A DNA stretch of 64,000 nucleotides from Rhodovulum euryhalinum (GTDB lineage Bacteria; Pseudomonadota; Alphaproteobacteria; Rhodobacterales; Rhodobacteraceae). The notes beneath the pieces were generated by a model. It searched no databases and was not told where the DNA came from. It was given only the letters and a program-made list of their open reading frames with translations. Below are positions 51,355 through 55,976 of this stretch, piece by piece (within the stretch, counting starts at the first letter, position 1; each line of letters opens with the position of its first letter). A program made the position numbers and the translations under genes. The stretch covers positions 124,001 to 188,000 of the forward strand of contig NZ_SLWW01000005.1 in assembly GCF_004342445.1 (NCBI RefSeq). The letters are read 5' to 3'.

Positions 51355-51389
51355 TTTGTGATCACGCCCGAGAAAAGTGTGATCACAAA
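51355..51389 (-). promoter_or_regulatory. composite GTGATCAC operator upstream of sucC
   Basis: TTTGTGATCAC - 13 bases - GTGATCACAAA: two perfect octamers with 21 bp between centres (two helical turns) and symmetric outer AAA/TTT. The site is 105-139 bp upstream of the sucC ATG. An identical arrangement precedes sdhC, and single octamers flank the GntR gene. Strong candidate for a dimer-of-dimers operator of a GntR/FCD regulator. Confidence 0.8.
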
Positions 51390-51462
51390 GCGGTCCGGCC
51401 GTCCCCGCAGGGCCCGGCGCGGTATGCTGCGGCGCATCCCCGCCCGGGCCCGGGAACGGAAA

Positions 51463-51488
51463 GGGGCCGGTCGCGGCGGACCGGCCCC
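51463..51488 (-). terminator. rho-independent terminator of mdh
   Basis: GGGGCCGGTC/GACCGGCCCC, a perfect 10-bp stem with a 6-base loop, 20 bp past the mdh stop on the minus strand, followed by TTTCC. It separates mdh transcription from the suc operon. Confidence 0.75.
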
Positions 51489-51507
51489 CCGATGCTGACG
51501 CCGGCCG

Positions 51508-52470
51508 TCAGGCCAGTGTTTCGTCGATTCCCTTGCAGGCCTCGACCAGACCCCTCACCGCGTCCACCGACTTGTCGAACATCTCCTGCTCGGCGCGGTC
51601 GAGCTTGATGTCGACGATCCGCTCTATGCCGCCGGCGCCGATGATCGTGGGCACGCCGACATACATCCCCTTGAGGCCAAGCGCCCCGTCGACCCAGGCC
51701 GCGCAGGGCAGAAGCCGCTTCTGGTCCTTCAGATAGGCCTCGGCCATCTCGATGGCGCTGGTCGCGGGGGCGTAATAGGCCGACCCGGTCTTGAGCAGGC
51801 CGACGATCTCGGCACCGCCGTCGCGGGTGCGCTGGATGATCGCGTCCAGCTTTTCGCGGGTGGTCCAGCCCATGTCCACCAGATCGGGCAGCGGCACGCC
51901 GCCCACAGTGGAATAGCGCGCCAGCGGCACCATCGTGTCGCCGTGCCCGCCCAGGACGAATGCGGTGACGTCCTTCATCGACACGTTGAATTCCAGGCTG
52001 AGGAAGTGGCGAAAGCGCGCGCTGTCCAGCACGCCCGCCATGCCGACCACCTTTTCGGGCGGCAGGCCGGAATATTGCTGCAGCGCCCAGACCATCGCGT
52101 CCAGCGGGTTGGTGATGCAGATCACGAAGGCGTCCGGCGCGTTGTCGCGGATGCCCTCGCCCACGGATTTCATCACCTTGAGGTTGATGCCCAGCAGGTC
52201 GTCACGGCTCATCCCCGGCTTGCGCGGCACGCCGGCGGTGACGATGCACACATCCGCCCCGGCGATGTCGGCATAGTCGTTGGTTCCCTTCAGCCGGGCG
52301 TCGAACCCTTCGGAGGGGCCGGATTCGGCGATGTCCAGCGCCTTGCCCTGCGGCACCCCGTCGGCGATGTCGAAAAGTACGACGTCGCCCAGTTCCTTGA
52401 TCGCGGCGAGATGGGCGAGCGTTCCGCCAATCTGCCCCGCGCCGATGAGCGCGATCCTGGGTCTGGCCAT
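51508..52470 (-). CDS. mdh: malate dehydrogenase
   Basis: Protein of 320 residues of the LDH-like MDH group. NAD motif [15 protein letters not shown], mobile loop [14 protein letters not shown] with the substrate-binding arginines, and the catalytic His in [13 protein letters not shown]. It oxidises malate to oxaloacetate. A strong hairpin follows, so it is a separate transcription unit from sucCDAB, although the gene order mdh-sucCD-sucAB is the usual Rhodobacteraceae cluster. Confidence 0.97.
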
Positions 52471-52785
52471 GTGTCTGGTCCCTGATCAGTTGTTTTCGGC
52501 GCGATGGGTAAGGCTTTGGCGCCGCTCGCGCAAGGCCGCCGCGGCGCGGGGCGGGGGCGGGCCGCGGTGCCGCGGGGCGGGCAAGCCGGGCAAAGCGCTT
52601 GTGATGCAAGGGGTTCAGGGGGGGCGTGGCCGGGGATTTCCGTGGGCCCGGTGTGCCCCGACAGGACCGATCCCGCGATGCCGGTCCGGGCACGGGGGTC
52701 TTTGTCCGCGCGGGGCGTCGGCTGATTCTGGCGGGGGCAAGGACGCCCGCCCGGCCGCGCGGGCCGGGCGGGCAGGGGGGGGCGC
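52471..52785. other. 315-bp non-coding region upstream of mdh
   Basis: Contains the mdh promoter region (no convincing -35/-10 found), a CTGATCAG palindrome near 52490 that differs from the GTGATCAC operator, and, at 52745-52773, an 11-bp GC hairpin (GCCCGCCCGGC/GCCGGGCGGGC, 7-base loop) positioned to terminate the next gene leftward. No coding frame supported. Confidence 0.5.
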
Positions 52786-54116: not shown

Positions 54117-54682
54117 CCCTTATCATCCTTGGCGTTCTGCTCTGGAGCTTTGCCCACCTGTTCAAGCGGCTGTTCCCCGGCCCGCGCGCGGCGCTGGACG
54201 AACGGCTGGGCGCGGCCTCGAAGATCATCTTCGCGGTGCCGCTGGTGCTGTCGGTCGTGCTGATGGTGATGGGGTATCGTGGCAACACCGCGCCCGAGAT
54301 CTATCAGACGCCCGGTTTCATGGTGCATGCGAACAACACGCTGATGCTGCTGGCGGTGGTGTTCTTCGGGCTGGGCAATTCGAAAAGCCGGGCGCGGCAA
54401 CTGTTCCGCCACCCGATGCTGTATGGTTTCGCCACATGGGCGGTGGCGCATCTGCTGGTCAATGGCGATCTGGCGTCCATCGTGCTGTTCGGCGGCCTGC
54501 TGATCTGGGCGATTGCCGAGGTCGTGCTGATCAACGCCAAGGAGCCGGTCACGCACTGGCGCGGCGGCAGCCTGGGGGGCGACATCAAGCTCGGGGTGAT
54601 CTCGATCCTGCTCTATCTCGTCATCATCTGGGTGCATAACTGGCTGGGCGTCTGGCCGCTGCCGCTGCCGAGTGCCGGGTGA
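54113..54682 (+). CDS. NnrU family membrane protein
   Basis: Protein of 189 residues with five to six membrane helices. Conserved His residues lie in LLWSFAHLFKR and AHLLVNGDLASIVLFGG, and ALDERLG follows the first helix, as in NnrU/isoprenoid-biosynthesis-type membrane enzymes. NnrU was named from nitric-oxide-respiration loci, but many members sit elsewhere and their activity is uncertain. Overlaps both neighbours (ATGA before, TGATG after), suggesting an operon with mcl2 and mch. Confidence 0.83.
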   Translation: MTLIILGVLLWSFAHLFKRLFPGPRAALDERLGAASKIIFAVPLVLSVVLMVMGYRGNTAPEIYQTPGFMVHANNTLMLLAVVFFGLGNSKSRARQLFRHPMLYGFATWAVAHLLVNGDLASIVLFGGLLIWAIAEVVLINAKEPVTHWRGGSLGGDIKLGVISILLYLVIIWVHNWLGVWPLPLPSAG

Positions 54683-54885
54683 TGCGCGCCTATCGCTTGC
54701 TGACCGAGGACGATACCGCCGCCTTCTGCCACAAGGTGACCGAGGCGCTGGCCAAGGGGTGGGAGCTTTACGGCTCCCCCGCCTATGCCGCGGACCCCGA
54801 GACGGGCCGGATGCGCTGTGCGCAGGCGGTGATCAAGGATGTGACGGGGGAATATGCCCCCGGCCTCAAGCTGGGAGAGTTGTAA
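54682..54885 (+). CDS. DUF1737 small protein
   Basis: Protein of 67 residues (MRAYRLLTEDDTAAFCHKVTE...). YRLLTxxDDxxFxxxVxxxLxxGWELYGSP is the DUF1737 pattern and matches throughout. Function unknown. The ATG overlaps the nnrU stop as TGATG; 5 bp separate it from mch. Confidence 0.85.
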   Translation: MRAYRLLTEDDTAAFCHKVTEALAKGWELYGSPAYAADPETGRMRCAQAVIKDVTGEYAPGLKLGEL

Positions 54886-54890
54886 GGTTC

Positions 54891-55925
54891 ATGGTCAAGA
54901 CCAACCCGGGCCGTTTCTTCGAGGATTACCATGTCGGGCAGGTGATCGCGCATGCGGTGCCGCGCACCGTTTCTGGCGGCGAACGCGCGCTTTACCACGC
55001 GCTTTATCCGGCGCGGCATGCGCTTTATTCCTCGGACGCCTTCGCGCAATCCTGCGGGCTGCCGAACGCGCCGATGGACGACCTGATCGCGTTCCACACG
55101 GTGTTCGGCAAGACCGTGCCCGACATCAGCCTCAACGCCATCGCCAATCTCGGCTATGCCGAGGGGCGCTGGCACCGGCCGGTCTGGCCCGGCGATACGC
55201 TGCGGTCCGAGTCCGAGGTGATCGGGCTGAAGGAGAATTCCAACGGCAAGTCGGGGGTGGTCTGGGTCCGGACCCGGGGTCTGAACCAGAAGGGCGACCT
55301 GGTGCTGGACTATGTCCGCTGGGTGATGGTGCGCAAGCGCGATGCGGACGCGCCCGCGCCCGAGACGGTGGTGCCGGAACTGGCCGACAGCGTGGCGCCG
55401 GGCGATCTGGTGGTGCCCGATGTGCTGACTTTCACCGGCTATGATTTCACTCTGGCGGGCGAACCGCATCGCTGGGGCGATTACGCCGTGGGCGAGATCA
55501 TCGACCACGTGGATGGCGTGACGGTCGAAGAGGCCGAGCACATGCTGGCCACCCGGTTGTGGCAGAACACCGCCAAGGTGCATTTCGACGCCACGGTGCG
55601 CGAGGATGGCAAGCGGCTGATCTATGGCGGCCATGTCATCAGCCTGGCCCGCGCGCTGTCGTTCAACGGGCTGGCCAACGCGCAGATGATCGTCGGCCTG
55701 AACGCGGGCGCGCATGCCAATCCCTGTTTCTCGGGCGACACGGTCAAGGCCTGGACACAGGTGCTGGACAAGGCCGAAACCGCCGCGCCGGGCGTGGGCG
55801 CGCTGCGGCTGCGGCTGGTCGCGGTCAAGGCGGGCGGCCTGCCAGGGGTGCTGCGCGGCGAGGACGGCAGATACCTGCCCCATGTGCTGCTTGACCTCGA
55901 CTACTGGGCGCTGATTCCGCTTTGA
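54891..55925 (+). CDS. mch: mesaconyl-CoA hydratase (MaoC family)
   Basis: Protein of 344 residues made of two tandem MaoC/hot-dog halves: the N-terminal half begins GRFFEDYHVGQVIAHAVPRTVS, and the second half begins near residue 185 (FTGYDFTLAGEPHRWGDYAVGEII). Length and first residues match mesaconyl-CoA hydratase of Rhodobacter, which makes beta-methylmalyl-CoA in the ethylmalonyl-CoA pathway. Its place next to mcl2 and upstream of sdh repeats the Rhodobacter order. No ribosome site is striking, but the start is fixed by similarity. Confidence 0.85.
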   Translation: MVKTNPGRFFEDYHVGQVIAHAVPRTVSGGERALYHALYPARHALYSSDAFAQSCGLPNAPMDDLIAFHTVFGKTVPDISLNAIANLGYAEGRWHRPVWPGDTLRSESEVIGLKENSNGKSGVVWVRTRGLNQKGDLVLDYVRWVMVRKRDADAPAPETVVPELADSVAPGDLVVPDVLTFTGYDFTLAGEPHRWGDYAVGEIIDHVDGVTVEEAEHMLATRLWQNTAKVHFDATVREDGKRLIYGGHVISLARALSFNGLANAQMIVGLNAGAHANPCFSGDTVKAWTQVLDKAETAAPGVGALRLRLVAVKAGGLPGVLRGEDGRYLPHVLLDLDYWALIPL

Positions 55926-55941
55926 CCGGCGGGCGCCGGGA

Positions 55942-55976
55942 TTTGTGATCACTTGGTGCTTGGCTGTGATCACAAA
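55942..55976 (+). promoter_or_regulatory. composite GTGATCAC operator upstream of sdhC
   Basis: TTTGTGATCAC - 13 bases - GTGATCACAAA, identical in spacing and flanks to the site before sucC although the 13-base spacers differ. It begins 17 bp after the mch stop and ends 121 bp before the sdhC ATG. Probably bound by the same regulator. Confidence 0.8.

Follow-up and report, generated by a model that had tools for sequence, protein, structure and literature searches.

The stretch of Rhodovulum euryhalinum DNA analysed here (the window, 64,000 nucleotides in all) carries two operons of the tricarboxylic acid (TCA) cycle, beginning with sucC and sdhC, and a gene for a GntR-type regulator that is very probably AkgR. 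Each operon is preceded by a pair of GTGATCAC octamers separated by 13 bp (N13) and set in a 35-bp element, TTTGTGATCAC-N13-GTGATCACAAA, that is present with 0 mismatches at both sites (Table 1). No match to this element was obtained in 100 shuffles, even with up to 3 mismatches allowed. The original prediction, made from the letters of the window, described two identical 35-bp operators; the two pairs and their common arms are confirmed, and the spacers differ.

The window contains six GTGATCAC octamers against 0.88 expected, a number that 1 of 100 shuffles reached. Four of them form the pairs, and the other two are single octamers that flank the regulator gene, as had been noted, with gaps of 9 bp to its ATG and 7 bp after its stop codon rather than the 10 and 8 bp first given. 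A genome-wide scan, proposed as a check in the original prediction, found GTGATCAC-N13-GTGATCAC exactly twice in the whole 3.79-Mb genome, before sucC and sdhC in the window, while the reversed-pattern control gave 0. Single octamers number 71 in the genome, and the window shuffle rate scaled to 3.79 Mb predicts ~52. Because this count is near chance, a lone octamer says little, and it is the pair, together with the longer half-site TTGTGATCAC, that carries the information. This half-site has six copies in the genome, five of them inside the window. The sixth copy lies, by eye, inside a mobile-element-like gene that we take to be an IstB-type insertion-sequence gene. Lone octamers were rejected as a genome-wide guide to the regulon, 71 being too close to chance; those examined are the ones in the window and at locus L133.

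Table 1. Features of the regulator gene and of the sucC and sdhC upstream regions (window coordinates)
Feature	Position	Strand	Remarks
Likely akgR promoter	40871..40899	+	-35 TTGACG 40871-40876, 17 bp, poor -10 CACAGT 40894-40899; predicted
Single octamer over proposed akgR -10	40889..40896	+	Conserved
akgR	40906..41556	+	GntR-type helix-turn-helix plus FCD domain, 216 amino acids
Octamer after akgR	41564..41571	+	Not conserved, probably meaningless
sucC, succinyl-CoA ligase beta subunit	50057..51250	-	
Likely sucC promoter	51282..51310	-	-35 TTCCAC 51310-51305, 17 bp, -10 TTAGAC 51287-51282; predicted from a weakly conserved block
sucC pair-to-promoter interval	51308..51357	-	A/T tracts at offsets 0-2, 9-11, 19-22, 29-30, 40-43 (by eye)
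sucC operon paired operator	51355..51389	-	Octamers 51358-51365 and 51379-51386, N13
sdhC operon paired operator	55942..55976	+	Octamers 55945-55952 and 55966-55973, N13
sdhC pair-to-promoter interval, 58 bp	55974..56031	+	A/T tracts at offsets 0-2, 9-14, 28-33, 42-44 (by eye)
Likely sdhC promoter	56032..56059	+	-35 GTGACA 56032-56037, 16 bp, -10 TATCAC 56054-56059
sdhC, succinate dehydrogenase cytochrome b556 subunit	56098..56481	+	

Paired octamers across the family

Octamer pairs were collected from 198 genomes of the family, one per genus. Two spacings dominate, N13 with 281 pairs (a total summed by hand) and N12 with 32. Spacings N0-11 gave 14 pairs and N14-44 gave 39, so that all 43 other spacings up to 44 together account for 53. 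At N12 and N13 the octamer centers lie 20-21 bp apart, which is two helical turns. The earlier idea that the spacing is kept for protein binding gains support from this family-wide comparison, although binding itself is predicted. Genome lists, E values, and spacer lengths were copied by hand.

The pairs follow the regulator. Of the 179 family genomes in which AkgR has a strong match (E <= 1e-40), 172 carry an N12/N13 pair, versus 2 of the 19 genomes lacking such a match (Fisher test, 3.6e-17). This cut was chosen after the list had been seen, and the P value is nominal, the genomes being related. At a cut of E <= 1e-60, the pair is found in 170 of 176 genomes with a match versus 4 of 22 without. 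The sample from outside the family comprised 289 genomes, 4 of which are family members; the remaining 285 yielded a pair in 2 genomes and a match at E <= 1e-60 in 0. One outside-family pair (L215) lies inside a reading frame.

The pairs also mark the same two genes. We read 110 pair loci, among them 75 of the 281 N13 pairs and all 32 N12 pairs, and 16 further regions were read later. Of these 107 N12/N13 pairs, 55 precede sucC and 50 precede sdhC, with the pair center 110-204 bp before the start codon. The other two stand before a likely fumC (L111) and, following mdh, before sucA (L114; by eye). The pair at L111 (positions 1501-1529, genome G042) is the third N13 pair of its genome, and the fumC-like gene behind it was named fumarate hydratase from its translation.

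T and A predominate at the immediate outer flanks of the pair (54 and 55 of 56 loci at sucC, 45 and 44 of 51 at sdhC), so that the unit is close to TGTGATCACA. The N13 spacers lean to A and T at their ends and are A/T-rich in the middle at sucC; the remainder is little conserved. Two loci (L236 in G191 and L237 in G135) have a third octamer ~21 bp, or two turns, farther upstream of sucC, in an N13/N13 arrangement.

The regulator and its own promoter

The 40906-41556 protein has an N-terminal GntR winged helix-turn-helix (PF00392, E = 8e-14) and a C-terminal FCD domain (PF07729, E = 3.1e-19), both over the cut-off. The closest solved structure by sequence is McbR/YncC (4p9f, E = 2e-23, residues 21-209). 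The AlphaFold model of AkgR (mean pLDDT 70, pTM 0.41) was too weak to use. The metal-binding set of FCD domains consists of D/N, H, H, and H. Among 51 AkgR sequences, N137, H141, H184, and D206 are invariant, and position 205, aligned with the last His of 7u5q, falls outside the conserved columns. The metal set of AkgR may be incomplete, the usual position of its last histidine being variable. The nearest named relatives by sequence, in Rhodovulum marinum and R. tesquicola, are 98% identical. One family genome (G193) has two strong akgR matches, at 76% and 79% identity.

We take AkgR and RSP_0981 of Rhodobacter sphaeroides to be one protein. RSP_0981 is a GntR regulator that, in the available passages of its source, was predicted to control succinyl-CoA synthetase, succinate dehydrogenase, and alpha-ketoglutarate dehydrogenase in R. 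sphaeroides (PMC4344238). A second paper, likewise available in part, has GTGATCAC among AkgR sites and terms AkgR a transcriptional activator (PMC6365646). In the window, GTGATCAC lies before the suc operon, the sdh operon, and akgR, the marks of an AkgR regulon as far as a DNA match alone can tell. Co-occurrence, the RSP_0981 prediction, and the published motif together support the original proposal that the GntR protein would control sucC and sdhC.

It is very unlikely that another regulator binds the pairs, such as one of the six further AkgR-like proteins of this genome. The genome does hold seven AkgR-like matches, AkgR included, the best of the others being 32% identical, and relatives may read the same octamer: PS417_07240, also 32% identical to AkgR, has it according to the available part of its source (PMC6365646), and a pair lies before a different GntR gene outside the family (L214, see below). 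Against this, the pairs track strong AkgR matches and are rare without them, and a conserved octamer stands at the promoter of akgR itself. At L214, in a genome from another family of the class (G344), an N13 pair lies no more than ~180 bp before a GntR gene 32% identical to AkgR, a hint that AkgR relatives also use the paired octamer.

Of 80 named akgR loci, 68 have the octamer just upstream of the gene. Counting the window among 69 loci, TTGAC starts 18 bp before this octamer in 48, and the start codon follows 8-9 bp past it in 55. The transcription start is probably at or beside the ATG, which would make the mRNA leaderless. Since the octamer overlaps the proposed -10, it occupies a classical repressor position, and AkgR may repress its own gene from this single site. 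The octamer after akgR was discarded as an operator, as 0 of 80 relatives have one there and 2 of 80 have one at +67. Regulation of its own gene, part of the original prediction, is therefore favored by the upstream octamer and not by the downstream one.

A 230-amino-acid gene (40182-40906) precedes akgR, and its stop codon overlaps the proposed akgR -35 box. Its product had no NCBIfam match. In 70 of the 80 loci, the gene immediately before akgR, in the same orientation, is a homolog of this one. akgR and lpd, which ends the suc operon, are convergent in 31 of the 80 named loci; the stretch fetched around the other 49 contained none of the searched TCA genes.

Promoter phasing and A/T tracts

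At sdhC the pair is followed by a promoter-like GTGAC[A/T]-N16-TA..A[A/C]. GTGAC[ATC] lies 40-85 bp past the pair in 44 of 51 sdhC loci and is missing from 7; where two copies occur (L204), the farther one was taken. In this smaller set, two loci have gaps of 78 and 80 bp, about two turns longer. Searching the 198 genomes for an N13 pair combined with GTGACW at a distance of 46-76 bp produced 110 matches, distributed over 108 genomes; the span lengths were copied by hand. Ninety-three of the gaps measure 57-61 bp, with sdhC identity known for those among the read pair loci, and none falls at 50-56 bp. Four of the 17 outliers come from sucC pairs (G146, G016, G123, and G169), and one, L229 (G192), faces away from sdhC and was dropped. 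The 12 true sdhC outliers have gaps of 47, 48 (four loci), 49, 68, 69 (two), 70 (two), and 71 bp, about one turn off and in phase with the main class (binomial P of about 1e-6).

With gaps one helical turn apart, a factor bound at the pair seems to work from one constant side of the helix, which at sdhC is consistent with an activator that would touch RNA polymerase. In the window, the sdhC octamer centers lie near -97 and -118 if transcription starts 7 bp past the -10. The corresponding -35/-10 block at sucC is weaker and about one turn nearer to the pair. This geometry bears on whether AkgR instead represses sucC and sdhC from the pairs. The GntR family is rich in repressors, and at akgR itself the site overlaps the proposed promoter. 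The pairs, however, end ~58 bp (sdhC) and ~47 bp (sucC) upstream of the -35, the distance at sdhC is phase-locked, and the available text on AkgR terms it an activator (PMC6365646), so that we consider repression improbable; repression by looping is still conceivable.

The interval between pair and promoter carries A/T tracts at helical intervals. At sucC in the window, the tracts AAA, AAA, AAAT, AA, and AAAA follow one another about one turn apart, which places the interval at the 99th percentile of the control. Across 56 sucC loci, columns with >70% A/T lie at offsets 9-12, 20-22, 30-32, and 38-42 from the pair, and across 51 sdhC loci at offsets 10-12, 21-22, 30-32, and 42-43. Median power at 9.5-10.5 bp was 5.4 for sucC and 5.0 for sdhC versus 1.34 for the control, which consisted of 126 AT-matched windows upstream of other family genes (longest-frame gene calls). 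The 90th percentile of the control was exceeded by 75% of sucC and 69% of sdhC loci. The phase of the tracts relative to the pair is nearly equal in all four groups (sucC or sdhC, N12 or N13).

What is kept in these intervals is A/T class more than sequence, because about half of the tract columns have each of the two bases at high frequency and mean pairwise identity is low (0.34 at sucC, 0.30 at sdhC). The same low identity bears on shared ancestry of a young promoter as the source of the conserved geometry. The genomes do all belong to one family, yet at 30-34% identity the intervals are hardly closer than unrelated DNA, whereas the octamers, their spacing, and the A/T class have persisted, and we find this explanation scarcely credible.

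The simplest reading is that the interval DNA would be curved, or would present a row of minor-groove contacts, aligning AkgR with the polymerase. A real but lesser possibility is that the tracts have nothing to do with AkgR and are either UP-like contacts for the polymerase alpha subunit or general promoter curvature. Curved, A/T-rich DNA is a well-known feature upstream of bacterial promoters, the mixture of A and T in about half of the tract columns is what minor-groove reading would give, and weaker periodic signals occur on the far side of the pair. Against this, the tracts share one phase to the octamers at both genes and in both the N12 and N13 groups and extend to about -90, and the AT-matched windows upstream of other genes score far lower. 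Even so, tracts and pair could each have their own, separate phasing to the promoter.

In the window, the sdhC interval has no tract near offset 21 and instead forms, between the pair and the -35, a perfect 15-bp inverted repeat (55977-56013) with an RNA fold of -26.8 kcal/mol (z = -7.0). No T run follows this repeat, whose arms fall on two of the A/T tracts. Its 14-base arm has a single other match in the genome, with 1 mismatch. An RNA switch was considered and set aside, as no Rfam family reached its gathering score within 40000-58800.

A proposed activation module

We consider it likely that AkgR bound at the pairs activates sucC and sdhC by way of the phased tracts and represses akgR from the lone site. 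Two AkgR dimers would bind next to each other on the same DNA face, separated by 20-21 bp or two turns. They would be centered about 97 and 118 bp before the sdhC start, and some ten bp nearer at sucC, and would from there activate both operons. With A/T tracts once per turn in phase with the pair, the interval is probably curved, and the curve may bring AkgR, or alpha C-terminal domains of RNA polymerase resting on the tracts, onto the polymerase face. At akgR, one dimer alone over the -10 would repress, forming a negative feedback loop. The effector is presumably a TCA cycle carboxylate.

A number of observations pull the other way. Binding and activation in R. euryhalinum are predicted from sequence, and the identity with RSP_0981 is argued from targets and motif rather than from its sequence, the 80 compared loci not including R. 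sphaeroides. Seven strong-match genomes have no pair, three of them <80% complete (G122, G147, and G166) and four 91-100% complete (G040, G054, G061, and G155). Two genomes with pairs have no strong match (G096, 77% complete, and G114, in ~320 contigs), and outside the family G240 and G302 pass 1e-40 (36% and 40% identity) but have no pair. If all 17 gap outliers are kept, the P value for phasing becomes 3e-4, and the usual TA of the -10 is seen by eye in 8 of the 12 shifted sdhC promoters (L106, L177, L224, and L225 are without it). At sucC, 11 of 12 outliers are in phase, but promoters in the usual place also give in-phase second-best shifts in 30 of 44 cases, leaving P = 0.07 after this control. 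The test is confounded because A/T tracts alone yield in-phase shifts, and sucC phasing was not retained as strong evidence, though five of the sucC outliers (L141, L157, L165, L174, and L194) do lie 10-12 bp nearer the start codon, at 112-114 versus a median of 124. As for the tracts, the window's sdhC interval has none near offset 21 and stands at the 95th percentile of the control, whose promoters were not anchored on known start sites. Part of the sdhC interval is conserved in sequence, 14 of 51 loci having AAAAAACC. A ~10-bp periodicity is present outside the intervals as well, upstream of the pairs at sucC and sdhC (mean-profile P <= 0.004) and downstream at sdhC (P = 0.001), but is weaker there, with an amplitude of 0.07-0.09 versus 0.20-0.26 in the intervals, about a third.

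A bolder version of the activation model, to which we give about even chances, treats the ~110-bp stretch bounded by the first octamer and the -10 as one helically phased module, in which two AkgR dimers two turns apart would be followed by tracts about once per turn and by the promoter on the same face. AkgR would wrap or bend this DNA, or spread over the tracts to the polymerase, and the lone dimer would silence a leaderless akgR; mostly phase and A/T class would be conserved, base sequence much less.

Regulator, motif, and targets are those of a known regulon. That of AkgR (RSP_0981) in R. sphaeroides has the same GntR family and the same targets (PMC4344238) and the same GTGATCAC (PMC6365646), as far as the accessible parts of these papers go, and the link between regulator and targets is not new, having been published for that species. 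The published AkgR passages contain nothing on paired spacing, promoter phasing, A/T tracts, or a site at the akgR promoter (PMC4344238, PMC6365646), and the part of a comparative regulon paper available to us names no AkgR-type regulon (PMC5343134). In the literature searched, in part as excerpts, four features were not found in print, namely the constant distance between the two sites, the helical locking to the promoter, the phased A/T track, and the difference from akgR with its one site; the primary AkgR paper, which lay outside the search, may describe them. The original prediction is thus borne out in part, having overlooked the published regulator and targets, the promoter phasing, and the A/T tracts.

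McbR/YncC of Escherichia coli, the closest in solved structure, has targets that differ from those of AkgR. CitO of Enterococcus faecalis, judged from the accessible text, is likewise a GntR protein of the FCD type and activates carboxylate (citrate) genes from sites upstream of promoters (PMC4746285). Its ligand, citrate, is known, and a divalent metal stands in the title of that paper, whereas the metal histidine position 205 of AkgR is variable. NanR of E. coli, in the passages available, also places several GntR dimers on an arrayed operator, three on a GGTATA repeat, but is a repressor with other sequence and spacing (PMC8012715).

In a large family that includes Rhodovulum and Roseobacter relatives among others, a single small module acting on two main targets appears to switch central TCA flux. 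The activator would be an FCD-type GntR protein working from a helically phased two-dimer platform. The interval, compared over 56 sucC and 51 sdhC loci, looks like DNA in which phase and A/T class are kept while sequence drifts.

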